Below are positions 1 to 36,225 of a stretch of 64,000 nt of DNA, piece by piece. Origin of the DNA: Methanofollis ethanolicus (GTDB lineage: Archaea; Halobacteriota; Methanomicrobia; Methanomicrobiales; Methanofollaceae); contig NZ_BCNW01000001.1 in the NCBI RefSeq assembly GCF_001571385.1, positions 186,001 through 250,000 of the forward strand, written 5' to 3'. The translations under genes and the position numbers were made by a program. Numbering within the stretch: position 1 is the stretch's first letter; every line of letters begins with the position of its first letter. The notes beneath the pieces are model-generated. The model did not search any database and was not told where the DNA came from. It saw only the letters and a program-made list of their open reading frames with translations.

Positions 1-59
1 CTCTCCGTTCCCTTCAGTCGTTCCCGCTCAGGATGGAGGGTGATGGCAATCTCCCTCCA

Positions 60-482
60 GGGGAGGGCGCCGACCCATTGCCTTCCCCATACAGGCCACC
101 GGGGGCTCCTCGAAAACCTTCGGCTCATGGCACATCATAGATGTGCCTGCTCAGGAAATCTCCGATTTCCTGTGTTCTCGAACTCGCTACGCTCGTTGCC
201 CCCGGACCCCCACCTGCGATTGGCCCGGGGAAGGGCGGATGTGATCACGAGGGGGGGAAATTGCCATCCCACCCCTAATCCTGAGCGGAGTGCGACCGAA
301 GGGAGTCGAGAAGACGAAGTCTTCGCTGTCCGAACGAAGGGAGGTCAAGAAGGTCGAAGACCTTCACTGTGGTCCCCCGGCGCGAGCGTACGGGAAGGCA
401 CGTTGACCGGCAGACCCCACAAAACAATTTTCATGGAGTATGCTTGAGTCCCCGGGACTCACGCCTGATTCTACAAAACCTA
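60..482 (+). repeat. Degenerate copy (A) of the dispersed hairpin/MITE-like repeat; gene-free left end
   Basis: I see no credible gene in the first 875 bases. This stretch aligns by eye with the complete elements at 516-851 and 10577-10847. It has the 'gccttcccc' entry, a CCGGGGG/CCCCCGGA stem whose loop is expanded by about 90 nt of small hairpins, the 'attggcccggggaag' segment, 'attgccatccc', and an end near 470-482 resembling the family terminal repeat (attctacaaaacc). Two nested 40-nt palindromic modules lie in tandem at 291-328 and 332-368. The open frames across it are by-products of the G+C-rich palindromes and are not called as genes. Confidence 0.6.
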
Positions 483-515
483 TGAGTACTTCACCCGATC
501 CAAAAAAGAAAAATC

Positions 516-851
516 GGCTCTGTAGAAACCCTTGCGGGAAAGTACTTCCTGAAGTGATAGGGGAAAATTCCATTCAGAAGTGCCTGCGCCGGGGGGGCTG
601 CCGCTCAAAAAACTACGTTTTTCTCATACTCACTTCGTTCGCACCCTGCCATTACGATAGGGGCCGGGATGGCCTCCTCCTCCAAAACTCCGACCCTTTC
701 TTCCCGGGACCAATCCTCGCGCGGGGAACGAGCGTCAGCGAGTTCGAGAAGACGGAGTCTTCGAGGTCCGGGGGCAAAAGTCCCCCGGCGAACGGGAAGG
801 CAGAGGATCAGCACGCATTATCAACCGATATAGGAGGATTTCTACAGAGCC
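516..851 (-). mobile_element. MITE-like element, complete copy (B)
   Basis: This 336-bp non-coding element is bounded by perfect 13-bp terminal inverted repeats, GGCTCTGTAGAAA at 516-528 and TTTCTACAGAGCC at 839-851. It is flanked by a perfect 7-bp direct repeat AAAAATC (509-515 and 852-858), which looks like a target-site duplication. Its reverse complement matches the element at 10577-10847 along almost its whole length, apart from two insertions of the ~40-nt palindromic module (605-643 and 726-766). It contains no transposase, so it would have to be moved in trans by an element outside this window. It lies just past the stop codon of the downstream-facing phosphodiesterase gene. Confidence 0.85.
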
Positions 852-875
852 AAAAATCCCGAAAACCCCGTCCCC

Positions 876-1595
876 TCACAACTCGAAAGTCTCGCCGTCC
901 ATCGCAAGGTGGGGGGTGTCCCAGGGGATGAGGTGAGAGGCGTGGGTGCAACGGAAGTCCTTTGGCCTGAGTTCTTCCGCCATCTTCAGGGCGTCGGCAT
1001 AGTTCATGTGCTTGGTGATGGTATACCCCGGCGGGACGATGGCGTCGAGGACCAGGAGGTCGGCACCCGCGAGAGCCTCTTTCGTCGCCGCCGGCATGCG
1101 GTCGTTTGTGTCGGAGGTGAGGGCGAGCACCGCCCCGTCATGCTCGATGCGGACGCCATAGGTCGGCATCGGCGGGTGGTCCACCGTCAGGAGGGTGACC
1201 TCCGCGCCGAAGAGGGAGAAAGGCCGGTACGGTTCGACGGCGTGCTCTTCGAGAGAGAGAAAAGAGAAGACCGAGCCCGCATAGTCGAGAGTAGGGGCGG
1301 CGGCATAGACCGGCGGCACCTTCTGCACCCGGTAGAACTCGCCGTAGCCCATGAAGTGATCATAATGGCCGTGGGTCCAGATCACGGCGTCGATGTGTGG
1401 CGAACCGGCGGCGATGAGCTGGGCCCTGAGGTCGGGGCCGGTGTCCACCAGAATGTGCTTCTCCCCGACCTCCACAAGGACGGCCGCTCTCAGGCGTTGC
1501 CTGCCGGTGTGGCTGGCCCCGGCGCAGACCGGGCACGAACACCCGATCTTCGGTGTCCCGATGGCGTCCCCGGTCCCGAGCAGCGTGACCTTCAT
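876..1595 (-). CDS. Metallo-beta-lactamase fold phosphodiesterase, PhnP-like
   Basis: This is a 239-residue metallo-hydrolase, probably a cyclic-phosphate phosphodiesterase of the PhnP type. The metal-binding motif THGHYDH is at residues 74-80, after a conserved D-T-G (51-53). An N-terminal C-x-C-x2-C (C19, C21, C24) matches the structural zinc site that marks PhnP-like members. Later conserved positions include H139 region (VDHPPMPTYG) and a C-terminal CTHASH. The start codon lies one base from the stop of the AAA+ ATPase gene upstream, so the two are almost certainly co-transcribed. The substrate is not known; no C-P lyase genes are nearby, so a role in phosphonate breakdown is unlikely here. 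Confidence 0.85.
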   Translation of the reverse strand: MKVTLLGTGDAIGTPKIGCSCPVCAGASHTGRQRLRAAVLVEVGEKHILVDTGPDLRAQLIAAGSPHIDAVIWTHGHYDHFMGYGEFYRVQKVPPVYAAAPTLDYAGSVFSFLSLEEHAVEPYRPFSLFGAEVTLLTVDHPPMPTYGVRIEHDGAVLALTSDTNDRMPAATKEALAGADLLVLDAIVPPGYTITKHMNYADALKMAEELRPKDFRCTHASHLIPWDTPHLAMDGETFEL

Positions 1596-1596
1596 C

Positions 1597-2886
1597 CTAT
1601 CCCCACGAACAGTTCCGGATCAGGTTGCGGTTCTCCACCGTCAGGAGGCCGCACTCGAGATCATTCTGGGAGATCGTCCGCCGCTTATCCATCAGGGCGT
1701 TCAGCACTGCCTCCTTCAGCATCATCTTCAGGTCGGCGCCGGAAAAGCCTTCTGTCCGCGCCGCGACACCGGCAAGGTCGCAGTCGCAGTCGAGGGAGCG
1801 GGCGAAAGTCGCCAGGATCGCCGCCCGCATCGCCTGGTCAGGGAGAGAGAACTCGACAACCTCATCGAAACGCCGCCACGCCGCCTGGTCAAGGAGTTGC
1901 GGGTGGTTCGTCGCCCCGATCATGACCACGCCATTTTTGACCAGACTGATCTTGTCGATGTTTTTCAGGAGCATGTTGACGGCCCGCTTCATCGCCCCGT
2001 GGTCGTCGGAGACCCGACTCTTCGCGACAAAGTCGAACTCGTCGATGAAGAGGATGCAGGGGGAGAGACTCTTTGCAATCTCGAAAATTCTGTCGATATT
2101 CTTCGAGGTCTCGCCGAGGTACTGGGAGGTGACCATGGAGAGGCGGACTTCGAGCACCGGCATGTGGAGTTCGTGGCAGATGGCAAGGGCGAGGGAGGTC
2201 TTGCCCGTGCCGGGCGGTCCGACGAAGAGGAGTTTGCCGACCTCGGAGATGTTGTGGGCGCGGAGGAAGTCGCGGTTCTCGATCACCGTTCCTATCCTGG
2301 CGATCACCTCCTTCTGCGCGCCGGTGCAGACGATACCGTCCATCTGCTGCTCGATCTCTTCGGGGGCGCTGACGATGACGAGTTCCAGCGCTTCTTTGAA
2401 ATGCTCGTCTTTATCGGTCAATTGTGCAACCCGCCGGTCAAGGGAGAGGCGGGAATCGGAGAAACGGGGGTTTTTCGCCCGCACGTCCTCGTACCTGAGG
2501 TTGAGGGAATCGAAGTTTCCTATATAGAAGGCGAGCGCCGGGTTCTTCGCCACCTGCTCCTTTCCGCCATGACCGGCGAACCATTCGGCCCCGGCCTTGA
2601 GGTCGGTGATATGATAATGGAGGTTGAGGGTGTCAAAATCGACGAAGGGATTTTTGAGAAGTTTTTTGACCGCCTCATCGGTCGTCCCGGGTGCCCTCTT
2701 GAGGAGGGCCTCTGTGATGACGAGAGGACGCTTGATCTCAGCCGCTTCCGGGGAGGGGAGGAAGAGGGACCGGCACTGGGGAGGGAGGTCTTCCATGTCC
2801 AGCTGGGGGTTCTTGTTATACACCTCAGCCGTCAGGAGATATTCCATCAGCCGGATGACATCGTCTCTGCTCTCTGCGCACGACAT
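1597..2886 (-). CDS. AAA+ ATPase, single AAA module
   Basis: This 429-residue cytoplasmic ATPase has a roughly 180-residue N-terminal region that I do not recognise, followed by one AAA module. Walker A GPPGTGKT is at 223-230, Walker B ILFIDE at 278-283, sensor-1 Asn at about 327 and an arginine-finger pair at 338-339 (RRF). A C-terminal helical lid follows (GFSGADLKMMLKEAV). It resembles Cdc48/FtsH/PAN-type AAA domains, but the C terminus (RNCSWG) lacks the HbYX tail that docks proteasomal ATPases. It has neither a second AAA domain nor a protease domain. It is the first gene of a two-gene operon with the phosphodiesterase. The partner protein and substrate cannot be told from sequence. Confidence 0.85.
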   Translation of the reverse strand: MSCAESRDDVIRLMEYLLTAEVYNKNPQLDMEDLPPQCRSLFLPSPEAAEIKRPLVITEALLKRAPGTTDEAVKKLLKNPFVDFDTLNLHYHITDLKAGAEWFAGHGGKEQVAKNPALAFYIGNFDSLNLRYEDVRAKNPRFSDSRLSLDRRVAQLTDKDEHFKEALELVIVSAPEEIEQQMDGIVCTGAQKEVIARIGTVIENRDFLRAHNISEVGKLLFVGPPGTGKTSLALAICHELHMPVLEVRLSMVTSQYLGETSKNIDRIFEIAKSLSPCILFIDEFDFVAKSRVSDDHGAMKRAVNMLLKNIDKISLVKNGVVMIGATNHPQLLDQAAWRRFDEVVEFSLPDQAMRAAILATFARSLDCDCDLAGVAARTEGFSGADLKMMLKEAVLNALMDKRRTISQNDLECGLLTVENRNLIRNCSWG

Positions 2887-2930
2887 GGATGTAACATTTC
2901 CTATAGTGGATGTGGTCCGATAATACTATC

Positions 2931-3806
2931 TCACCTGGTCGTCACGACGCAGCCGTCTGCCGTGACGATGAGGGTGTGCTCTGCCTGCGAAACGAAGGAG
3001 CCCGGGACGTCGTGGAGGACGGGGTAGCCGTAGACCACGCCGCTCCGGACCAGTGCCGAAAGGGCGATCTCGATTTTGTCCTGGGGGAGCCAGCGGCGAG
3101 AAAACGGCATGCCGCGGCGGTCACGGACCTGTTCGAGGATGCGCTTTGCCGAGGGGAGGCGGGTCGGCTTTACGGCAAGCTGCTGGTAGATCTCGATCCT
3201 GGACCGATCGCAGACGCGGCCGCTGCCGGTGGTGGCGAAGGGCTCGATCGCTATGGCCATCCCTTCTTCGAGGACGGCACCGCCGACGATGCCGACATTC
3301 GGGATCGTCGGGTCGGTGTGAATGGAGTACGGAGCAAGGCCGTGGCCGGTGAGGTTTGCAACAGGCAGGAAGCCCCGACCTTCGATCTCGGCCTGGACTG
3401 CGGCGCCGATCTCACCGGTGGTGACGCCGGGACGGACCAGGGCGATCGCCCGGTCGAGGGCGGCCCGCGACGCGGCGACCAGGGCCTCGTGGCCGCCGAG
3501 GTCGACCGAGAGGGCGGTGTCGGCGATCCTGCCCTCGAGGGCGACGCCGAGGTCGAGTTTGACCAGGTCGCCCGTGGCAAAGATCCTTTCGTCGCCGGCC
3601 GAGGCGGTGTCGTGGGCGGCGTCCTCGTTCCGGGAGAGGTTGAGGGGGAACGCGATCTCGGCACCCGCGTCCAGGATCATTCCTTCTACCGTCTCGACGA
3701 CGTCGAGGACGGGTGCGCCGACTTTCACCATGCCCGCCCCTTCGTTCAGTATCTTCTGTGCGATTTTTCCTGCTTCCAGGTAGAGTTCCATTTCTTCGTC
3801 AGTCAT
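2931..3806 (-). CDS. map: Methionine aminopeptidase, type II
   Basis: This enzyme removes the initiator methionine from nascent proteins. The 291-residue length and the archaeal type-II layout fit the family. The expected metal ligands are visible: D85, D96, H155, E188 and E276, with the substrate-binding H65. The inserted helical subdomain typical of type II enzymes lies at about 200-250. The start ATG overlaps the stop of the upstream M24 peptidase by four bases (ATGA), indicating translational coupling. Confidence 0.95.
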   Translation of the reverse strand: MTDEEMELYLEAGKIAQKILNEGAGMVKVGAPVLDVVETVEGMILDAGAEIAFPLNLSRNEDAAHDTASAGDERIFATGDLVKLDLGVALEGRIADTALSVDLGGHEALVAASRAALDRAIALVRPGVTTGEIGAAVQAEIEGRGFLPVANLTGHGLAPYSIHTDPTIPNVGIVGGAVLEEGMAIAIEPFATTGSGRVCDRSRIEIYQQLAVKPTRLPSAKRILEQVRDRRGMPFSRRWLPQDKIEIALSALVRSGVVYGYPVLHDVPGSFVSQAEHTLIVTADGCVVTTR

Positions 3807-4933
3807 ACGATCAGGTTCCTTGGATAGTTGGTGAAGCGGTCAAAGCCCTCTGTGGTGACGGCACCCATGTCCTCGATACGTATCCCGCCGATGCCCGGAT
3901 AATAGAGGCCGGGCTCGACGGTGACGACATTGCCGGCTTCGAGGGGACCGCCTGAGGGGGAGAGAGAGGGGCCCTCGTGGATCTCAAGTCCGACGCCGTG
4001 GCCCAGGGAGTGGACAAAGCCCTTTGTATCGCTCTCATAGCCCCGTTCTGTGAAGAATGCGACGACGGCGTTGTGGACGGCGGCACCCCGCACGCCCGCG
4101 GCGATGAGGGAGACGCCGAGCGCCTGGGCCGCGGCGACGGTGTCGTACATCTCCGCAATCTCGGGGGAGGGTTCGCCCTTCACGACTGTTCGGGTCATGT
4201 CGGCATAGTAGCCTGTGGCGTCGTCCCGCGGGAAGAGGTCGATGACGACGGGTTCGTCCTCGATGAGGGGGCCGTCGCCCTGCCTGTGGGGCATGGCCGT
4301 TTCCTTTCCGCAGGAGACGATCGTCTCCTTCGCGGTGTAGCCCCTTTCCATCAGGAAGAGGTGCATCGCGGTCCTGACCCGCCCCGACGTGAGGGGGGCG
4401 CCGTCGAGGTGCAGGACACCGTTCTGTGCAGTCGACCGGCGGATCATCGAGATGCCGAGGTCCATCGCCTCTTCGGTCGCTCTCTGCGCCGCCCGGATGG
4501 CGGCGAGTTCCTTCGAGGTCTTGACGGCACGCATCGCGCTGACGGCCCCGGCACCGTCGATTTCGACGCCGGCGTACTCCTCCAGGAGGCGGCCAAGCCC
4601 ATACGGAAAGGTGCGGGGGACGAGGACCTTCCCCCCGGCGAGGGATGCGGCGGTGCGCGCGAGCGCTTTCCAGGCATCCTTCTCCTCGTCGAGATATTTC
4701 AGGAAGCCTGCCCCGGCACGGGTAATGGGCGCGGCAGACGACTCGGTCGCCGCCCGCTCATACTCCATCTGGGGCACGACGAGGAGCCCACGCTCACCTT
4801 TCCGCTTCACGTACAGGAGGGGGTCGGAGACCTGGAAACGGGTGAGGTAGCGGAAGTCGGCGTCGTCCGAGGAGGCGTAGAGGACATAGGCCGCACAGTC
4901 CGCCGCAGCGAGAGCATTGTCAAGGCTTTCCAT
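3803..4933 (-). CDS. M24 family Xaa-Pro peptidase
   Basis: This is a 376-residue M24 metallopeptidase (Xaa-Pro aminopeptidase/dipeptidase type). An N-terminal creatinase-like domain spans about 1-150, and the pita-bread catalytic domain contains VVIDLFPRD, the DMTRT ligand segment, HSLGHGVGLEIHE and a final VTVEPGLY...IRIED. I placed the start at the ATG at 4933, just before MESLDNA and preceded by AGGATG; the frame stays open further upstream but that part has no family similarity. It is coupled by an ATGA overlap to the methionine aminopeptidase, so two related-fold peptidases form one operon. It likely works in cytoplasmic peptide turnover. Confidence 0.88.
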   Translation of the reverse strand: MESLDNALAAADCAAYVLYASSDDADFRYLTRFQVSDPLLYVKRKGERGLLVVPQMEYERAATESSAAPITRAGAGFLKYLDEEKDAWKALARTAASLAGGKVLVPRTFPYGLGRLLEEYAGVEIDGAGAVSAMRAVKTSKELAAIRAAQRATEEAMDLGISMIRRSTAQNGVLHLDGAPLTSGRVRTAMHLFLMERGYTAKETIVSCGKETAMPHRQGDGPLIEDEPVVIDLFPRDDATGYYADMTRTVVKGEPSPEIAEMYDTVAAAQALGVSLIAAGVRGAAVHNAVVAFFTERGYESDTKGFVHSLGHGVGLEIHEGPSLSPSGGPLEAGNVVTVEPGLYYPGIGGIRIEDMGAVTTEGFDRFTNYPRNLIV

Positions 4934-5073
4934 GCAATCATCCTGGTCCGGGCCATCGGCCCGGCAGTACTGTGTATCTATGGATGGATGATTACAAGAA
5001 ATTACGCTTCTTTGCACACAAAAAAAGCATGGATGGTGAAATTTCCATACCATCTTTCGGAGAAGGGTGTGAA

Positions 5074-5409
5074 TTATTCATTTTCTACGACATAGTCCTG
5101 GAGGACATCCTCCACACCGGCCCGGATCAATGTACGCAGACCCTCACCCCTGAACTCGGATCGCAGAGCGTCCCGGATCACCGCCTGTCCTTCAGGGCCG
5201 CGGAGATACCCTGCGATCCGATCGTCAATCGTTTCGAGGACCTTAGACCTCGTCATCTCCTGGTATAACAGAGACCGTACAAATTCCGAATCATTATAAA
5301 AACCACGATTTTTTGCTTCATGGGATATCCATTCCTTCAACTCTCCGGGAATCCGGATGCCCACGCGGTAGTCAGCCTGATCAGTGGTCATTGAATGACC
5401 AATCTTCAT
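5074..5409 (-). CDS. Ribbon-helix-helix-like DNA-binding protein
   Basis: This is a small protein of 111 residues (105 if the second ATG at 5391 is used). Residues about 14-50 (VGIRIPGELKEWISHEAKNRGF...EFVRSLL, shown in part) have the beta-strand plus two helices of a MetJ/Arc-type ribbon-helix-helix domain. The C-terminal half is helical and acidic and may oligomerise. It stands alone on the minus strand. A TATA-like tract on that strand at about 5478-5490 could be its promoter. It is a probable transcription regulator with unknown targets. Confidence 0.6.
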   Translation of the reverse strand: MKIGHSMTTDQADYRVGIRIPGELKEWISHEAKNRGFYNDSEFVRSLLYQEMTRSKVLETIDDRIAGYLRGPEGQAVIRDALRSEFRGEGLRTLIRAGVEDVLQDYVVENE

Positions 5410-5840
5410 TGTCTCAAGAGATAGGTATTATCCATGCCGATTTCCACCTCGTTTGCCAGTCGTTCGACGGAGACAAACGTATATATAACATAAACTATAA
5501 GTGACATTCATGCCCCCCACACGCGCGATATGGCGACCGAATAGCGTACACACCGATCTGGTTTGTCCATCGGTGTCTCCATCCACCGGCAGACAGGTGA
5601 GAGTATGAACGGCAAAAGAACCTGCAGTCCCCCTCACTCTGGAGACCGGATGGCTGACAAAAAAAATAGCACGACCAAAGAATTGAACGGCACTTTATCG
5701 GATTTCATTCTCCGCGCTCTCGGAGATCGCCACGAAAGATCCGGGAACTCCCGAAAACGCATCCCCTGATATCGGGTGCACCGAATTTTCCCCCATGGAC
5801 GCATGAAAACTACTTCAACAAGCACGCACAAGTACGATCG
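5410..5840. other. Intergenic region with TATA-like tract and one weak small ORF
   Basis: This 430-bp region has no clear gene. An AT tract near 5476-5495 (acgtatatataac) could serve as a promoter in either direction. A 39-codon frame at 5650-5769 begins with an ATG preceded by GGAGACCGG and encodes a polar, lysine/arginine-rich peptide (MADKKNSTTKELNG...). I could not tie it to any family, so it is mentioned here rather than called. Confidence 0.4.
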
Positions 5841-6113
5841 ATGGAGGACGCCGATAAGCAGGTCTTCAAATGGAGGTTCTGGAAACTGACGATAGTCCTG
5901 AACATCATCATCATCCTCGTCGCTCTCGCCATAGGCCTCTTCTTCAAACTGCCCCCGCCAACCGGCCCGGCGGTTGCAGCGGTGCTCATCCTCGTCGACC
6001 TCCCCCTGATCTGGTACTTCAGGAAGGACTACTACAGGACAAAGGCCTGGCTTGACGTGCATGCCGGTCCCTCCAGGAAGGAGGAGAAAGATGCTCAAAA
6101 AACTGAAGAGTGA
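5841..6113 (+). CDS. Small membrane protein, two transmembrane helices
   Basis: This is a 90-residue protein with two hydrophobic helices (about 17-36 and 42-60) and a charged C-terminal tail rich in K and E. It has no recognisable catalytic motif. Its end overlaps the start of the next gene by 23 bases, and the ribosome-binding site of that gene (AGGAAGGAGGAG) lies inside this coding sequence. The pair is therefore an operon of a membrane protein and a winged-helix regulator. Function unknown. Confidence 0.7.
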   Translation: MEDADKQVFKWRFWKLTIVLNIIIILVALAIGLFFKLPPPTGPAVAAVLILVDLPLIWYFRKDYYRTKAWLDVHAGPSRKEEKDAQKTEE

Positions 6114-6390
6114 GATCGAGCTCCTCGGCCGCCACCTCGAGGTCCTGCGGGTCGTCGCCGCACACCAGCCCATCGGGATCATGAAACTTGCCGAGGTGCT
6201 CGGCCTGCCGTACCACCGGGTGCGGTATTCTCTGCGCGTCCTGGAGGGGATGGGCTATATCAGGGCCTCTCCCGCGGGGGCGACTGTCACCGAGCGCGCC
6301 CGCGAGGACCTCGCCGATCTCGACCAGGAGATCGACGGCATGATCGCCCTTCTGGAGGGTATGCGGAACGACCCCTCCCGTAAGGTTTAA
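6091..6390 (+). CDS. Winged-helix transcription regulator, small archaeal type
   Basis: This is a 99-residue protein. The start chosen is the ATG at 6091, which is preceded by a strong GGAGG; a longer frame begins at 6052 but would ignore that site. Residues about 15-70 form a helix-turn-helix with a wing (IMKLAEVLGLPYHRVRYSLR then GYIRASPAGATVTERA), followed by a short coiled C-terminal helix suited to dimerisation. It is co-transcribed with the small membrane protein just upstream. The targets are unknown; it may regulate its own operon. Confidence 0.72.
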   Translation: MLKKLKSEIELLGRHLEVLRVVAAHQPIGIMKLAEVLGLPYHRVRYSLRVLEGMGYIRASPAGATVTERAREDLADLDQEIDGMIALLEGMRNDPSRKV

Positions 6391-6430
6391 TAGGAGCGGC
6401 AAGAAAGATTGTAAGGCACAATAGTGCATT

Positions 6431-6503
6431 GCCGCCATAACTCAGTTGGTAGAGTGGCTGGCTGTTAACCAGCATGTCACAGGTTCGAGTCCTGTTGGCG
6501 GCG
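6431..6503 (+). tRNA. tRNA-Asn (GUU)
   Basis: A complete cloverleaf is visible. The acceptor GCCGCCA pairs with TGGCGGC, the anticodon stem is GCTGG/CCAGC with loop CTGTTAA giving anticodon GTT, and the T arm is ACAGG-TTCGAGT-CCTGT. No CCA is encoded. A TATA-like box TTTAATA at 6386-6392 lies about 40 bases upstream, and a T-rich tract follows the 3' end. Confidence 0.95.
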
Positions 6504-6505
6504 TA

Positions 6506-6527
6506 ACTTCTTTTTGTTTACATTTTT
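6506..6527 (+). terminator. T-rich terminator of the tRNA-Asn gene
   Basis: Three T runs (TTC TTTTT, GTTTA, ATTTTT) directly follow the tRNA 3' end. Archaeal RNA polymerase terminates at such tracts without needing a hairpin. Confidence 0.55.
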
Positions 6528-6561
6528 GAGAACTAAATGGGCTCACATCATCCACCTGGCT

Positions 6562-6575
6562 AAAAAAAAGAAAAA
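6562..6575 (-). terminator. T-tract terminator after the DUF134/MinD cluster
   Basis: On the minus strand this reads TTTTTCTTTTTTTT immediately past the stop codon of the DUF134 gene, fitting an archaeal oligo-T terminator for the 9.6-6.6 kb operon. Confidence 0.6.
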
Positions 6576-6935
6576 TCACTCTTCAGGATTGTCACAGAAA
6601 CTGCGGGGACATTCTGCCCCCTTTCTCCTGCATCCGGCGATCCTGATCCCTTTCCCGTTGACCAGGGCGTCGGCCACCTTCCGGCGTGCCTCGTGGAGGT
6701 CGCGCCAGAGGGTCTTCCGGGAGATGCCGAGTCTTTCGGCCGCCTCCCCCTGCTCAAGCCCTTCCAGATCGGTGAGTCTGAGGGCCTCCACCTCCTCGGG
6801 GAGGAGGAGAACGATCTCCCCCGACCTCTCACAGAGGGGGCCGAAGCAGCGGAAGGCCGTTCCCTCGGGGATCAACCGGGGAGACCGCGGCCGTCCGCGG
6901 CGGCCGCAGCACCTGCCCTGTATCTCGTCATCCAT
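6576..6935 (-). CDS. DUF134 (UPF0251) family DNA-binding protein
   Basis: This is a 119-residue protein of the DUF134 family. A sigma-70 region-4-like helix-turn-helix lies at about 45-90 (LPEEVEALRLTDLEGL then EAAERLGISRKTLWRDLHEARRK). Cysteines near both ends (C9, C10, C30, C35 and C101, C109, C114) could bind metal. Family members usually sit beside NifX-like and Mrp-like genes, as here, and are thought to be metal- or redox-responsive regulators. It overlaps the 3'-side of the operon's MinD gene start by eight bases. Confidence 0.85.
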   Translation of the reverse strand: MDDEIQGRCCGRRGRPRSPRLIPEGTAFRCFGPLCERSGEIVLLLPEEVEALRLTDLEGLEQGEAAERLGISRKTLWRDLHEARRKVADALVNGKGIRIAGCRRKGAECPRSFCDNPEE

Positions 6936-7800
6936 CGATCGTCAGCTCGCAAGAGAGGTGCTCGGCCATCTGATATAGGGCCTCCGACGCGGGCGACGGG
7001 GTGCGAGTGACGGGCCTGCCCGCACGCACGGCCGCGAGGACGGCCGGGTCGAAGGGGATGTGCCCGATCACGGGCAGCCCTTCCTCGCGGCAGAAGTCCT
7101 CGACCTGCCGGCAGACCGAGGGCTCAAGGTCGAATTTGTTGATTACCACAAATATCCGGAGAGAGAAGCCCCTGCAGACCGTGACCAGTCTCTTCAGGTC
7201 ATGGAGGGCCGAGAGGCCGGGTTCGGTAACGGCGAGGACGGCGTTCATGCCGCTGATCGTAGAGATGAGGGGGCAGCCGATGCCTGGCGGGCCGTCGGCA
7301 AGGAGGACGCGGCTCTCCCCTGCCATCTCCTCGGCCTTCTGCCGCACTGCGTGGACGAGGAGCCCCGAGTTCCCGGCGCCGGGCGAGAGACGTGCATGAG
7401 CGAGTTTCCCGGCCCCGGTCTCGGAGCGATAGATCGTCCCGGCCCTGAAAGGTGTCATCTGCACCGCACCGGCAGGGCAGACGAGGGTGCAGACGCCGCA
7501 CCCCTCGCACCTCAGGGGGTCGACGGCGCAGCTGTCCTCCTCACAGGTGATCGCATCGAAACGGCAGGCAGAGGCGCAGGCGCCGCAGGCGGTGCAGACG
7601 GCGGGATCGATCGACGCCCTCTCCAGTCCCATGAAAGGTTCCTCGTCGAGGGGCCTCGGGTCCAGGAAGAGTTCGAGGTTGGCCGCGTCGACGTCGCAGT
7701 CGGCGAGCACCTTCGGTACCGTGAGGAGGTCGGTGAGGGCGGCGGCGACCATCGTCTTCCCTGTCCCTCCTTTCCCGCTCACGACCGCGATCCGGATCAT
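6928..7800 (-). CDS. MinD/Mrp-type P-loop ATPase with 2x[4Fe-4S] ferredoxin insert (first copy)
   Basis: This is a 290-residue ATPase of the NifH/MinD/Mrp superfamily. A deviant Walker A (GKGGTGKT, 9-16) is followed by an inserted double-cluster ferredoxin domain with C69, C72, C75, C79 and C98, C101, C104, C108, and then the rest of the ATPase (DGPPGIGCP, and a ValI-Asn-K-D base-recognition segment). Such proteins are believed to help build or transfer iron-sulfur or other metal clusters. Its start overlaps the stop of the paralogous ATPase upstream by four bases. The two probably act as a heterodimer, which is my inference from tandem coupling. Confidence 0.9.
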   Translation of the reverse strand: MIRIAVVSGKGGTGKTMVAAALTDLLTVPKVLADCDVDAANLELFLDPRPLDEEPFMGLERASIDPAVCTACGACASACRFDAITCEEDSCAVDPLRCEGCGVCTLVCPAGAVQMTPFRAGTIYRSETGAGKLAHARLSPGAGNSGLLVHAVRQKAEEMAGESRVLLADGPPGIGCPLISTISGMNAVLAVTEPGLSALHDLKRLVTVCRGFSLRIFVVINKFDLEPSVCRQVEDFCREEGLPVIGHIPFDPAVLAAVRAGRPVTRTPSPASEALYQMAEHLSCELTIDG

Positions 7801-8648
7801 TCTTTCACCCCGCAGAGGCGCACGGCGTCGGCGTACAGGGCGGAGAACTTTTCCGTGAAACCCGGCAGGTCACGGGCGACGAGGCCGCCCCTGTTCTGGA
7901 CCGCAGCGATCTCGCGGCCAAAGGGGATGGTCATGAGAACGGGGAGGTCGTGCTCACGGCAGAAGGCGGTTGCCACCTCGTCCCGACCATCGCTCCTGTT
8001 GATCACGACGCCGGCCGGTATGGAGAGCATCCTCACGGCCTCGACGGCAAGGGCGAGGTCATGGAGCCCTGATGGCGTCGATTCCGTCACCAGGATGCAG
8101 AGATCGCAGCCTGTGATCGTCTCTATCACCGCACAGGCGACACCGGGGGAGGCGTCCTGGATGATCAGGGGGTGCTCCCCGGCGGCCGCACGCGCCGCAC
8201 GCACGACACCGGGTGCCTGAACTTCTCCTTCGTTCAGGAAGCCGGAGACGAGGGTGAGGCCGGGCAGGGGGTGTGCCGTGCTGACTTTTCCGATCGCCCG
8301 TCCGGTTTCGGTGACGGCACCTTCCGGGCAGACGATCCGGCACCCGCCGCAGGAGTGACAGAGTTCCGCAAAGAAGAGGACGCGGTCGCGGAGGACGGTG
8401 ATCGCGCCGTACCGGCAGAATTTCCCGCATGCACCGCACTGTGTGCAGAGGGCCGGGTCGAAGACCGGGTTCTCGGCTGTCACCGCCTCGTCGACAGTCT
8501 CCGCCGGGAAAAAGAGGTGGAGGTTCGGTTCCTCCACGTCGCAGTCGACGAGGGCGACCTCCCGGTCGCGAGAGAGGACATAGCCGAGGTTTGCGGCTAC
8601 CATCGTCTTCCCGGTGCCACCTTTTCCGCTCGCAACGACGATCTTCAT
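7797..8648 (-). CDS. MinD/Mrp-type P-loop ATPase with 2x[4Fe-4S] ferredoxin insert (second copy)
   Basis: This is a 283-residue paralogue of the next gene in the operon. Walker A is GKGGTGKT (8-15), and the ferredoxin cysteines are C68, C71, C74, C78 and C97, C100, C103, C107. I placed the start at the ATG at 8648, where the family normally begins (MKIVVASGKGG). The frame extends upstream to 8861, but that part is a low-complexity shadow of the NifX-like gene. It ends with ATGA coupling to the first-copy ATPase. Probable cytoplasmic cluster-assembly or electron-coupled ATPase. Confidence 0.9.
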   Translation of the reverse strand: MKIVVASGKGGTGKTMVAANLGYVLSRDREVALVDCDVEEPNLHLFFPAETVDEAVTAENPVFDPALCTQCGACGKFCRYGAITVLRDRVLFFAELCHSCGGCRIVCPEGAVTETGRAIGKVSTAHPLPGLTLVSGFLNEGEVQAPGVVRAARAAAGEHPLIIQDASPGVACAVIETITGCDLCILVTESTPSGLHDLALAVEAVRMLSIPAGVVINRSDGRDEVATAFCREHDLPVLMTIPFGREIAAVQNRGGLVARDLPGFTEKFSALYADAVRLCGVKE

Positions 8649-8658
8649 GGCGGTCGGG

Positions 8659-9000
8659 TCAGAGGAGGGACGGGAGTTCACCGGCGAGGAAGGCCGCGAG
8701 CGCTGCGGAGACGGTGCCCTGTCCCTTGAAGGCGCAGGCCCTGATACCTGATGCCTGAATGGCGCTCGCTGCGTTGCCGCCGACCTGCCCGGTGACGAGG
8801 GCGGTGGCGCCGTGGTCGAGGACGGTCTGGACCGCACGCGGACCGACGCCGCCCTGCGCATCTGCGAACGGGTTTTTCACCGCCTCAAATGTTCCTTTCT
8901 CCGTGTCGGCAAAGACGAAGTACGGGGCCCTGCCAAAACGCGGCTGGACCTGGGCGCCCGAATCAGGGCCGTCTGCCGTGATGCAGACGATCAATGACAT
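8659..9000 (-). CDS. NifX/NifB-C-like dinitrogenase FeMo-cofactor family protein
   Basis: This is a 113-residue single-domain protein of the family that binds FeMo-cofactor precursors (the RNase H-like NifX/NafY/NifB C-terminal fold). Visible family signatures are FGRAPYFVFAD near residue 23, GVGPRAVQTVLDHG near 52 and TGQVGGNAASA. No nitrogenase genes are nearby, so a role in another metal-sulfur cofactor is more likely. It sits between a second NifX-like gene and two Mrp-like ATPases in one operon. Confidence 0.85.
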   Translation of the reverse strand: MSLIVCITADGPDSGAQVQPRFGRAPYFVFADTEKGTFEAVKNPFADAQGGVGPRAVQTVLDHGATALVTGQVGGNAASAIQASGIRACAFKGQGTVSAALAAFLAGELPSLL

Positions 9001-9359
9001 CCCCCATCGCAGTTTTCGTGCTCTTCGGCGCCGTGGGTGCAGGAACTTTCCCCTGGTGCGAGTTTTCCGGCGGCATAGGCTGCGGCGACTTCCTCGACCG
9101 GACCGGAGGCCCCGAGGAAGACCTCGATCCCGTTCTGGCAGAAGAGGTCGACGGCCCGTGGCCCCATCCCGCCGGCGACCACGGTATTGACGCCGTGTTC
9201 GGCAAGATAACTGGGGAGGAAACCGGGCTCGTGTCCGGGGTTCGCAAGGTCGGGAAGCCGGGATGCAGACCCTTCGTTTACATCAAAAAGTGCATAGGCT
9301 TCGCAGTGGCCGAAATGGCCGGACACGAAGTCTCCATCGAGTGCAATCGCAAGTTTCAT
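8991..9359 (-). CDS. NifX-like protein with Cys/His-rich tail
   Basis: This is a 122-residue second NifX-family protein (GHFGHCEAYALFDV near residue 14, GMGPRAVDLFCQNGI near 65). Unlike its neighbour it ends in a Cys/His-rich tail (CTHGAEEHENCDGGCH), which could carry metal. It overlaps the following NifX gene by ten bases. Together with DUF5320, DUF134 and the two ATPases it makes a conserved-looking metal-cofactor module. Confidence 0.82.
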   Translation of the reverse strand: MKLAIALDGDFVSGHFGHCEAYALFDVNEGSASRLPDLANPGHEPGFLPSYLAEHGVNTVVAGGMGPRAVDLFCQNGIEVFLGASGPVEEVAAAYAAGKLAPGESSCTHGAEEHENCDGGCH

Positions 9360-9363
9360 CTTT

Positions 9364-9585
9364 TCACCACCTGCCGGGACGGCGACCTCTCATGCCGTTG
9401 CCGTGGCCTCTGCCGCACCCGCACGGGATGCCGCCTCTTCCAAGGCCGTAAAGAACGTTGTTCTGCTCCGGTGCGGTCGCATCTCCGGACTCCACCGGGG
9501 CCGGGCGTGCCGTCATGCACGGACCGCGGCGACCCCCTGTCATCTGGCCGCATCCCCGCGGCCCTGTTCCATCATATCCTGGCAT
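9364..9585 (-). CDS. DUF5320 family small protein
   Basis: This 73-residue protein begins MPGYDGTGPRGCGQMTGG, the hallmark opening of DUF5320 proteins, and is rich in Gly, Arg and Cys. I chose the ATG at 9585 because it gives that opening and has GGTGA upstream. The open frame continues to 9636 without similarity. Such proteins commonly precede NifX/Mrp genes in anaerobes. It is the first gene of the minus-strand operon running down to 6576. Confidence 0.75.
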   Translation of the reverse strand: MPGYDGTGPRGCGQMTGGRRGPCMTARPAPVESGDATAPEQNNVLYGLGRGGIPCGCGRGHGNGMRGRRPGRW

Positions 9586-9833
9586 GTCGTTCACCATACC
9601 CTTGCAGGCAATAGTACTCATATGCGCACAATACATGAAACCTGTGGTCGGGGCAAGATCGGGGACGTGCGGCGATCAGAGCATACCGGAAGAGAGAGGG
9701 GACGGAGAAATCGTGCCTGATCGAAACGTCAGGGAGAACGCACGCAGATTTAATATGGTCTGGGGGTGACTGATATACTACACGGGAGGCATTCCCCGAT
9801 ACAGGGGGCATCCCGAGAAGAACCCGTGCACGC

Positions 9834-9905
9834 GGGCCCGTAGCTTAGTGGTGGAGCGCCCGGCTCATAACCGGGTGGCCGTGGGTTCGAATCCCTCCGG
9901 GCCCA
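9834..9905 (+). tRNA. tRNA with CAU anticodon (elongator Met or Ile2)
   Basis: The acceptor GGGCCCG pairs with CGGGCCC, the D arm is GCTT/GAGC, the anticodon stem is CCCGG/CCGGG with loop CTCATAA (anticodon CAT), and the T loop is TTCGAAT. The initiator-specific GGG:CCC orientation in the anticodon stem is absent, so this is not the initiator. Sequence alone does not let me separate elongator Met from the agmatidine-modified Ile tRNA. A TATA-like ATTTAATAT lies at about 9748-9756. The T stem has one T-T mismatch. Confidence 0.92.
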
Positions 9906-9945
9906 TTCCATTTTCTGAAAAGAGCAATGACAGGAGCCGCGGCTC

Positions 9946-10455
9946 TCACGCTGCCGCGGGGAGCGACACCTCAAGCACCTCTGCAAGTTCCCGGAGGGCC
10001 GCCTTCTCCTTCTCGCTGACGCGGGCGCCGCCAATGCCGAGGAAACCGCCTTCCCTGCTCGCCTCGGCGACGGCATGACCGATGCCAAGGAGCCACTTCC
10101 TGAACCCCGCTGCCTCGCCGGGCGTCGTCCTTGCCGCCAGGATGGGGCCGATGCCGCGGAGGCCCTCCAGGATCCGCGCCCTGATCTCTTCGGGCCTCCC
10201 CTCGGTAAAGTCCTCGCTGCCGGGAAGGTGCTCTTTCCTCTCCGACATCTCCCTGAGGTCGGCGACCAGCGACCCGACCAGTTCCTTCGCTTCCGGCGGG
10301 ACGTCGAGTCTGTCGAAGGCCCGGGACAGGGCCTTCAACTCCCGGAGAATGCCGGTGAAGTCGGGATCGGCGAGCATCACGGAGAAACCCGCGGCGACAG
10401 GCGCCTGCAGGAGGCGGCCCCATTCTGCAGTGGTGAAGTCCGCTTTTGTCGTCAT
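9946..10455 (-). CDS. Conserved protein of unknown function
   Basis: This is a 169-residue soluble, mostly helical protein with no membrane segment or catalytic motif that I recognise. The C-terminal part (KWLLGIGHAVAEAS then GGFLGIGGARVSEKE) looks like a conserved block that I have seen in proteins annotated only as hypothetical. The start ATG at 10455 is preceded by GGATGGACCGACC. It stands alone between a tRNA and a MITE copy. Function unknown. Confidence 0.65.
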   Translation of the reverse strand: MTTKADFTTAEWGRLLQAPVAAGFSVMLADPDFTGILRELKALSRAFDRLDVPPEAKELVGSLVADLREMSERKEHLPGSEDFTEGRPEEIRARILEGLRGIGPILAARTTPGEAAGFRKWLLGIGHAVAEASREGGFLGIGGARVSEKEKAALRELAEVLEVSLPAAA

Positions 10456-10576
10456 GGTCGGTCCATCCTCCCCGGGACAGGCATACCGGCCCGGGGTCTG
10501 TCATGCCCTCCGGGGGCCCGATCCCATATGAGAGTATCGGCGGGTCCGGGAAAAAAGTGGAATAGAATATTTTCGG

Positions 10577-10847
10577 GGCTTTGTAGAAATCCTCCTCCAT
10601 CGGTTGATAGTGCGTGCCGGTCCTCTGCCTTCCCGTTCGCCGGGGGATTTTTGCCCCCGGACCCCCGCGCGAGGATTGGTCCCGGGAAGAAAAGGTCGGA
10701 GTCCTGGAGGAGGAGGCCATCCCTGCCCCTATCGTAATGGCAGGGGGTATGGGGGGCGGCAGCCCCCCTGGACCAGGCACTTCTGAACAGGATTTTTTTC
10801 CCCTATCACTTCAGGAAGTACTTTCCCGCAAGGGTTTCTACAGAGCC
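10577..10847 (+). mobile_element. MITE-like element, complete copy (C)
   Basis: This 271-bp non-coding element has terminal inverted repeats GGCTTTGTAGAAA (10577-10589) and TTTCTACAGAGCC (10835-10847), with one mismatch. It is flanked by a perfect 8-bp direct repeat ATTTTCGG (10569-10576 and 10848-10855). It matches copy B (516-851) in inverted orientation but lacks that copy's two palindromic module insertions, so it may be closer to the basic form. Inside are the paired CCGGGGG...CCCCCGG stem and a GGGGGGCGGCAGCCCCCC stem. It sits 25 bases past the stop of the decayed EamA gene. Confidence 0.85.
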
Positions 10848-10880
10848 ATTTTCGGCAGGATATGAAGACATCCCCGACAA

Positions 10881-11789
10881 TTACGACTTCATCTCCGGGT
10901 CGGCCCAGACGTTCGCGAGCACCACCCCGGCAATGATCAGGAGACTCCCGACCGCATGGTTGGAGAGGAACGCCTCATGGAGTACCAGCACGCCTGCAAG
11001 GATAGAGACGACGACAGAGAGGTTCTGGATGATCCCCACCTTCGCCGCCTCCAGGTCCTTCGGGCTGTACATTGCGAGAAAAGACGTCCCGACAGAGGTA
11101 AAGAGGCCGAGATAGAGGAGGTCCATCATGAAACCCGGGTCCCCGAGCAACAGGGCCGCTCCGCCTGCGTCCAGACCCTCGCACACGATGGCCGCCGCCA
11201 CAAACGCGACACACCCGCAGAGCACCATCCTGAAGGTGAGGCTGACAGGGTCGAGAGTATACGGGTGAGCCTCCGCCCGAGGACGATGTACAGGGATGTC
11301 GTAAGAGCAGAGAGCAGGGTCAGGACCATCCCCGTCCAGCTGGTGCCGCCTCCGTTGTTCCCGCCCATAGAGAAGAGGCACACGATCCCGGCGATCGAGA
11401 TGAAGAAGGCGAGGAACTGTTTCGCATTCACGTGTTCCCCCAGCAGCAGGAGACCGAGGACGTCCACGAAGACGGGTACGAAGGCGGAGATGATCCCGGC
11501 CTCTGACGACGATATGGAGAGCAGCCCGAAAGCCTGAAGGGAGAAAAAGAGGACAGGCTGGATGAGAGAGAGAGGACCAGGAGGTCCCGGATCGCATCTG
11601 CCCTGATGCGAACCGCGATGACGCCTGCCGCAAGCAGCACCAGCATAAAAGCAAAAGAAAGGGCAAAGCGGAAGGCAAGAGTCGTGAAGGGCTCTGCAGC
11701 CCCAGAGATTCCTTGACGAAGAGGAAACTCAGGCCGATAAAAAAGGTGTTGACAACAGCGGCGATATACGCGTATGTCCGTTGCTGCAT
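10881..11789 (-). pseudogene. EamA/DMT-family transporter, inactivated by three frameshifts
   Basis: Drug/metabolite transporter sequence is spread over three frames of the minus strand. It starts in one frame (MQQRTYAYIAAVVNTFFIGL), shifts near 11700-11706 where a G run appears one base short, and shifts again at a (GA)n run at 11564-11574, where two extra bases or one missing base break the frame before QPVLFFSLQAFGLL. It then shifts back near 11262, after GRRLTR, into SLTFRMVLCGC and the last helices. Repaired, it would be about 300 residues with ten helices, the normal EamA length. Neighbouring genes are intact, so this looks like real decay rather than poor sequence, but re-sequencing would settle it. 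Confidence 0.8.
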
Positions 11790-11887
11790 GAAATACCCGT
11801 ACAATTTCGAGAACTGATCTGATACGTGTTGCGGGGACAGGGAGGGATTTCCTGACCCGTACACGCACAAAGAAAGGGAAAAACAGC

Positions 11888-11911
11888 AGGAGTTATATAA
11901 CAGGGACTCCT
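11888..11911. promoter_or_regulatory. TATA box framed by an inverted repeat
   Basis: AGGAGT (11888-11893) and ACTCCT (11906-11911) are inverted copies on either side of a self-complementary TATA tract (GTTATATAAC). The tract ends about 21 bases before the GTG start at 11923, implying a leaderless or nearly leaderless message. The symmetric tract could also have served the divergent pseudogene. Confidence 0.4.
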
Positions 11912-11922
11912 CATTCATTTCT

Positions 11923-13074
11923 GTGAACGGAAGAGACGTATGCCTCGATGCCGACCTCTACGAGGCCGTTTTCGACGCCACCGGCGACGGACTTGTCATT
12001 GCCGACCGTTCCTCCACAATCATCAGGGCAAACCGCAGATTTTTCAGGATGACGAGGTACGGGCGGTCAGAGATCGAGGGGGCGATGTCATGGTCACAGA
12101 TCGCGGAGGGTGGAGACCTCCCGGCCCTTGCCGTGACCGGAACGGCACCAGCCATAAGGGAAATGCGTCTGCAACGGAAAGACGGTTCTTTTATCGACGC
12201 CGCCGTCACGGTCAGGACTATCCCCGGCCGTGACCTCTTCATTGTCTCGGTTCTCGACATCACCGGAAAAAAACAGGTGACCCACGCTCTCCACAGGCGG
12301 GACGCAATTCTTGAGGCGATCAGTACCATGGCCGGCCGTTTCCTCGCGACGCGCACCTGGGAGGAGGAGATCCCCGGGGCCCTCCGCGGACTCTGCACGG
12401 CAACCAATGTCCACCGCGTCTACCTCTTCGAGAACACCACAGACCAGGAGACCGGCGAGACCCTCATGACAGGCCGGTACGAATGGACCAGAGAGGGGAG
12501 AGGAGGCGAGATCGCCACCACCAGGCGTCGAGGGCTCTCCTACCAGAAGGCCGGAGTCGGGGCATGGGAGACGGACCTCAGGAACGGAAAGACCGTCTTT
12601 TCCGACATCAGGACCGCCGAAAATGATGAAAGGTGGAACATGGAGGCGCTCGGGGTTCAATCGTTTGTCATCGTCCCGATACATGTCGGGGGTCGGTGGT
12701 GGGGGTTCATAGGCTTTGACGAGACGCGGGAGGAGAGGCGCTGGACCGAGGTCGAGATCGACGCACTCGAGGCTGCGGCAGGTATCATAGGGTCTGCGAT
12801 CCGCCGGCAGGAGACAGAAGAGGCGATGCTCGCCTACATCACCGAGTCGGCACTCAGACTCAAAAACCCGGTCATCCTCCTCAGGGAGAATTTCGAGGCG
12901 ATCCACGACGATATCAGGGACGAAACCGTTCCGAAGGAGGAGATCCTCACCCAGATCAGGGTCCAGATCGCGGCGGCCGACCAGATCGCCGAGAACCTTC
13001 GCGAGCTCAACGCTTCCATCGCCGAGGGGCGGCGAGAGATCCCCGACGCATTCCGTCATTTCTTGCGGAGGTAG
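11923..13074 (+). CDS. PAS-GAF sensor with kinase-like C-terminal helices but no ATPase domain
   Basis: This is a 383-residue cytoplasmic sensor that starts with GTG. A PAS domain lies at about 12-115 (FDATGDGLVIADRSSTIIRAN) and a GAF domain at about 140-290. A C-terminal helical stretch at about 298-383 (ALRLKNPVILLRENFEAI and ILTQIRVQIAAADQIAENLRELN) resembles the dimerisation helices of a histidine kinase but lacks the phospho-accepting H-E/D motif and any HATPase. The tail is shared with the sensor at 27871-28482. The KaiC-like partner gene follows after nine bases. It probably signals by protein contact rather than phosphotransfer, which is my inference. Confidence 0.8.
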   Translation: MNGRDVCLDADLYEAVFDATGDGLVIADRSSTIIRANRRFFRMTRYGRSEIEGAMSWSQIAEGGDLPALAVTGTAPAIREMRLQRKDGSFIDAAVTVRTIPGRDLFIVSVLDITGKKQVTHALHRRDAILEAISTMAGRFLATRTWEEEIPGALRGLCTATNVHRVYLFENTTDQETGETLMTGRYEWTREGRGGEIATTRRRGLSYQKAGVGAWETDLRNGKTVFSDIRTAENDERWNMEALGVQSFVIVPIHVGGRWWGFIGFDETREERRWTEVEIDALEAAAGIIGSAIRRQETEEAMLAYITESALRLKNPVILLRENFEAIHDDIRDETVPKEEILTQIRVQIAAADQIAENLRELNASIAEGRREIPDAFRHFLRR

Positions 13075-25139: not shown

Positions 25140-25392
25140 GAATAAGAGTCTTTTCCGGGGGGCATGCCCCCGGTCCCCGTGTCAAGATAGGCAGGGATAC
25201 GGCAATTTCTCTCCCCATGATTTCCTGTTCTCTCTTACCCGGCCTTATCCGAATTGGCGAGACGACCGGAGGGAGTCGAGAAAGCCTTCGGCTTTCGGTA
25301 ACGAACTGCGAGTTCAGACAGAAGAGTACGGCTTCCGCTCGAACGGAGAGCGAGCGATTCGCCGGGGCGAAAAAGAGAGACTCGTGCTGTGC
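25140..25392 (+). repeat. Degenerate repeat (D) with palindromic modules
   Basis: This gene-free stretch starts with a CCGGGGGGCATGCCCCCGG hairpin like the core of the MITE family and then carries two or three diverged copies of the ~40-nt palindromic module (about 25259-25297, 25300-25338 and 25340-25380). It runs into the 3' end of the winged-helix gene on the opposite strand. No terminal inverted repeats were found. Confidence 0.5.
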
Positions 25393-36084: not shown

Positions 36085-36225
36085 GAAAGGGCGGATGAGA
36101 TCACGGGGAGAGAGATTGCCATCCCCATCCTATCCTGAGCGGGGAACGAGCGTCAGCGAGTTCGAGAAAACCGTAGGTTTTCGAGTGATCGGGGGCGTAG
36201 TCCCCCGGCGCGGGACAGTGATCAG
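36085..36225 (+). repeat. Degenerate copy (G) of the dispersed hairpin repeat
   Basis: The order of blocks (gggaaagggcggatgagatc, 'attgccatcccc', 'tatcctgagcggggaacgagcg', palindromic module at 36143-36185, then 'gggggcgtagtcccccggcgcg') follows the second half of copy A near 225-390. The first hairpin of the family is absent. Confidence 0.55.

Follow-up and report, generated by a model that had tools for sequence, protein, structure and literature searches.

The 336-bp stretch at 516-851 (+ strand) of the window – that is, the 64,000 nucleotides of Methanofollis ethanolicus DNA analysed here, C1:186001-250000 of a 2.71-Mb genome (G000) – is best explained, with a probability of about 0.95, as a complete non-autonomous IS5-family element (MITE) that was mobilised in trans, was gained at this site and is now orphaned. 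A sequence-only reading had already proposed a non-autonomous transposable element, which is now supported by exact ends, copies, empty sites and transposase-bearing elements with the same ends. The stretch has the marks of a MITE, namely (i) perfect or near-perfect terminal inverted repeats, (ii) a target-site duplication (8 bp in the family, of which 7 bp remain here, with the empty site seen), (iii) multiple dispersed copies and (iv) no transposase gene, combined with ends that are common to an autonomous element.

The 13-bp terminal inverted repeats described earlier as perfect, GGCTCTGTAGAAA (516-528) and TTTCTACAGAGCC (839-851), are indeed both exact, and the terminal pair is the sole inverted repeat detected in 400-900 (arms 516-532/835-851, 94% over 17 nt). 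The 7-bp target duplication had to be amended: AAAAATC does stand at both 509-515 and 852-858, but the family length is 8 bp, not 7. On the left, the duplication is GAAAAATC (508-515), of which the 509-515 part is matched on the right and which is also what is found at the empty site of G009, a sister species, while the right copy (852-858) has apparently lost its first G. This missing base, which makes the duplication read 7 bp, counts against our explanation. As for the interior, earlier described as lacking an ORF, it holds no credible gene; two ORFs, 69 and 163 aa long, run across it only mechanically. Its description as built of G+C-rich hairpins is moderately true, with a G+C content of 56.5% and RNA folding somewhat stronger than that of shuffles (z -2.0 and -2.95). 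The MITE lies 24 bp from the 3' end of a metallo-beta-lactamase-fold gene (minus strand, 876-1595), and directly to the left of the MITE is GATTCTACAAAACC (467-480), which resembles the right end, in degenerate form, of a related element and to which no partner end with a duplication could be matched.

The genome holds many copies flanked by short duplications, the pattern that would be expected of a mobile element. A BLAST search with the MITE returns 62 matches, of which about 30 are long, and there are 113 occurrences (61 + 52) of the degenerate end motif GGCTYTGKAGAAW, versus 0 for the reversed control pattern. When these ends are paired, at least 39 elements of 169-954 bp have 8-bp flanks that agree in 7 or more positions (all 8 agree in 30), a lower bound because it comes from stretches around end motifs, and one that takes in a decayed insertion sequence (IS) and other subfamilies. 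When the left flank of one element is set against the right flank of another, such agreement is reached in only 19 of 1482 comparisons. It is this 8/8 or 7/8 agreement that sets the duplication of the family at 8 bp and makes the right copy at 516-851 one base short. The duplicated 8-mers are A+T-rich, with a preference for G or C at both outer positions, and flanking sequence is not common to the copies. One copy lies in the window itself, at 10577-10847 (minus strand), and the reverse match to it that had been pointed out is real (BLAST: C1:196577-196852, minus strand, 74% gapped identity). It is 271 bp long, close to the consensus (98.5%) and flanked by a perfect 8-bp duplication, ATTTTCGG, at 10569-10576 and 10848-10855.

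The elements fall into subfamilies with similar ends and different interiors. The subfamily of the MITE at 516-851 has ends ACCCTTGC / ATCCTCCT (GGCTCTGTAGAAACCCTTGC / GGCTyTGTAGAAATCCTCCT as given for this copy), another of about 230 bp has ends ACCCTCAC / ATCCTATT, and further ones of about 500-550 bp terminate in GAATCGGGCAT. The first has at least 16 copies, which align to an approximately 270-bp consensus with an ungapped identity of 93-99% in 15 of the 16 members and 85% in the remaining one; the MITE at 516-851 is 93% identical to this consensus and 92%, ungapped, to its nearest paralogue. An old age of the copies, which raw BLAST identities of 72-80% might suggest, was rejected, the differences being mostly indels and the ungapped identity to the nearest neighbour mostly 92-98%. 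Elsewhere in the genome, a probable nested insertion places a copy (L010 1484-1500, about C1:2693170) in the likely terminal repeat of another element (GGCTCTGTTGAAATTCT), with GAAATTCT duplicated.

The MITE at 516-851 and three other copies are longer than the consensus because they contain extra hairpin cassettes of about 39 bp. Two such cassettes, both on the + strand and both absent from the 270-bp consensus, are found here, at 604-642 (stem AAAAAC-tac-GTTTTT) and at 727-765 (AACGAGCGTCAGCGAGTTCGA-GAAGAC-gga-GTCTTC-GAG). Others lie at 129-172, 349-365, 25280-25296 and 36166-36182 of the window, cassettes being present within MITEs and also within G+C-rich intergenic repeats of other kinds. 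When left-arm sites (GAGCGnnAGCGAGnnnGAGAA) were chosen in G000 and G009 with no hairpin requirement, 31 of 41 were followed by a perfect stem of at least 6 bp, in eight different sequences, so that the stems differ from copy to copy and yet remain paired. Matches to the left-arm pattern number 31 in G000, 5-37 in each of 7 of its 11 congeners and at most one per searched genome outside the genus, and a reversed control has almost no matches. The cassettes are thus a genus-restricted modular repeat with a fixed left arm (GAGCGnnAGCGAGnnnGA) and a variable 6-7 bp hairpin. A tentative view, less probable than not, is that this repeat is a second tiny mobile or structure-maintained element that inserts into, or replaces, the loops of G+C-rich repeats including MITEs. 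Its structure may be maintained through template switching within a strand or because the hairpin is under selection. These cassettes may be of wider interest and might merit a separate study.

A transposase gene between ends of this type, the other item that the sequence-only reading had recommended looking for, was found as well. The end of the MITE together with its target (some 24-26 bases from either extremity of the query) is also present in several genera outside Methanofollis, and one such locus (L039, in G022) led to an IS transposase with homologues in 19 genomes, 61 relatives having been searched. In six of these (G004, G006, G020, G032, G044 and G047), the gene lies within a 979-1010-bp element with GGCTCTGTAGAA-type ends and 8-bp duplications, the IS at L076 being longer (1121 bp), and same-ended IS5-family ISs occur in several families of Methanomicrobiales. 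A representative transposase matches PF01609 at 2.4e-25 and the IS5 model NF033579 at 207.8 bits (cut-off 140). In the genome of the MITE, there is a single such element, a decayed 954-bp IS (C1:1588915-1589868; ends GGCTCTGTAGAAACCCTT / GGCTCTGTAGAATTCCTC; duplication CGAAAATC) which is about 87-90% identical to the G006 element and whose frame is broken into at least three pieces. The MITE is collinear with it at both ends, its left terminal inverted repeat (516-533, + strand) agreeing with bases 1-18 in 18/18 positions and the right one (834-851, minus strand) with bases 937-954, in the same orientation, in 17/18, and elsewhere there is no significant match. The two thus share ends only, which is too little to derive the MITE from that IS by internal deletion. 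From these comparisons, the terminal sequence is identified as that of IS5-family, ISH1-group-like ISs.

What establishes mobility is the combination of these duplications with empty sites. At the 516-851 locus, G009 has CCCGATCGAAAAAAGAAAAATCCCGAAAACCC, without insertion, versus CCCGATCCAAAAAAGAAAAATC + 336 bp + AAAAATCCCGAAAACCC in our genome, and the site is also empty in two further sister species, G010 and G011. For three other copies, the one at 10577 and those at C1:754989 and C1:2099690, the two flanks fused into one query likewise align unbroken in G009 and/or G010 with 84-95% identity (95% in G009; 93% and 90% in G010 and G009; 84% in G009), the site at 10577 being empty in both species. 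Neither a lack of empty sites nor a failure of the flanking repeats, which would have told against a mobile element, was therefore found. An immobile structured repeat of extragenic DNA, REP/BIME-like or a regulatory RNA, with ends that are merely complementary, would suit a G+C-rich stretch that folds slightly better than shuffles and lies just downstream of a gene. We regard it as highly improbable, because dozens of sites that are unrelated to one another show precise empty sites and 8-bp duplications and because the ends are identical to those of ISs; moreover, a search of Rfam over 1-12000 of the window returned tRNAs and chance matches only, none of them over the MITE.

It could also be argued that the element is a MITE which the sister species lost by precise excision, with no gain in our genome. 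Precise deletion can be brought about by short direct repeats on either side of an inverted repeat, and this copy shows some divergence (92% ungapped identity with the nearest paralogue) while the flanks in the sisters are 89-94% identical. However, the site at 516-851 is empty in three sisters, and other sites are empty in one or two, which would require repeated independent precise losses unless the three form one clade. Such a loss thus appears quite unlikely, and the simplest reading is that the copy was probably gained after the split from G009-G011. A last doubt concerns the family to which the ends belong. IS6-family ends (GGnnCTGTnGCAAA-like) and the 8-bp duplication of that family are similar to those of the MITE, and an assignment to IS6/IS26 instead of IS5 might be considered on these grounds. 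The transposases that lie between these very ends, however, match PF01609 and NF033579 (IS5), and among the models listed the best are IS5 and none is IS6, which makes this assignment very improbable.

Our preferred scenario is thus that of a MITE whose two ends would serve an ISH1-group-like IS5 element as recognition ends and whose interior is devoid of a transposase. A DDE-type IS transposase would act on these ends in trans, the IS5 enzyme being the presumed mobiliser because ends and duplication length are common to both elements. Insertion would occur at an A+T-rich 8-bp target, preferably with G or C at its outer positions, which would be duplicated, and the copy at 516-851 would have landed beside the metallo-beta-lactamase-fold gene, probably after the split from the closest sampled relatives. 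The only local source of transposase would then have decayed. With a broken frame in the sole parental IS of the genome, the family looks orphaned here. A search for PF01609 (DDE_Tnp_1) found nothing else in G000, where DDE_Tnp_1 and the IS5 protein were the targets covered, and this absence of an intact gene suggests that the family is probably immobile at present. A transposase of another family in the same genome could, in principle, be the true mobiliser.

Related elements exist elsewhere. A scan of genome contigs for paired perfect ends picked out Methanofollis (two contigs), another Methanomicrobiales bin and three Woesearchaeota contigs. MITEs with the same 13-bp ends and other interiors were seen at L040 1205-1519 (G020) and L099 3829-4158 (an uncultured Methanomicrobiales), with perfect 8-bp duplications (GATTTTTC and TAAAAATC, respectively) and an internal hairpin common to both. 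Two woesearchaeotal elements, L101 1765-2057 (293 bp) and L102 5086-5393 (308 bp), have perfect GGCTCTGTAGAAA ends and apparently 9-bp duplications, that of L101 with one mismatch, and a third has no duplication, which is why all three were left out of the family. The genome with L101 (G062) encodes an IS5-like transposase that shares 32% identity with that of Methanofollis.

No report of MITEs in Methanofollis was found among the papers searched, the single one that contains both Methanofollis and 'insertion sequence' being unrelated, and the 12-mer GGCTCTGTAGAA turned up in one paper, likewise unrelated. The Methanomicrobiales are not named in the consulted passages of a review of prokaryotic MITEs (PMC10969869). 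This MITE family in Methanomicrobiales is apparently undescribed so far; it is a new and well-documented case of a kind of element that is itself ordinary. Knowledge of its parent IS, of its preferred targets and of the empty sites seen between species allows the family to be properly annotated and to serve as a marker of strains. In this genome, where the family looks stranded, the MITEs seem to have outlasted their transposase.

When compared with known systems, the partner IS resembles the ISH1 group of the IS5 family, which is tabulated with a length of 900-1150 bp, an 8-bp duplication and one ORF (PMC6352166). Most partner elements are about 0.95-1.01 kb long, and they fall within these limits with a single ORF, which encodes a PF01609 DDE transposase scoring above the NF033579 cut-off, short terminal inverted repeats and an 8-bp duplication. 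This placement is by length, ORF count and duplication; NCBIfam splits IS5 subtypes without naming ISH1, and the likeness is that of the partner IS, the MITE itself having no transposase. The MITE finds its counterpart in prokaryotic MITEs such as SM1-SM4 of Sulfolobus, which are also small, transposase-free, bounded by terminal inverted repeats and target duplications, and present in tens of copies (25-44 for the SM families; PMC10969869), but which differ from it in their ends and hosts.
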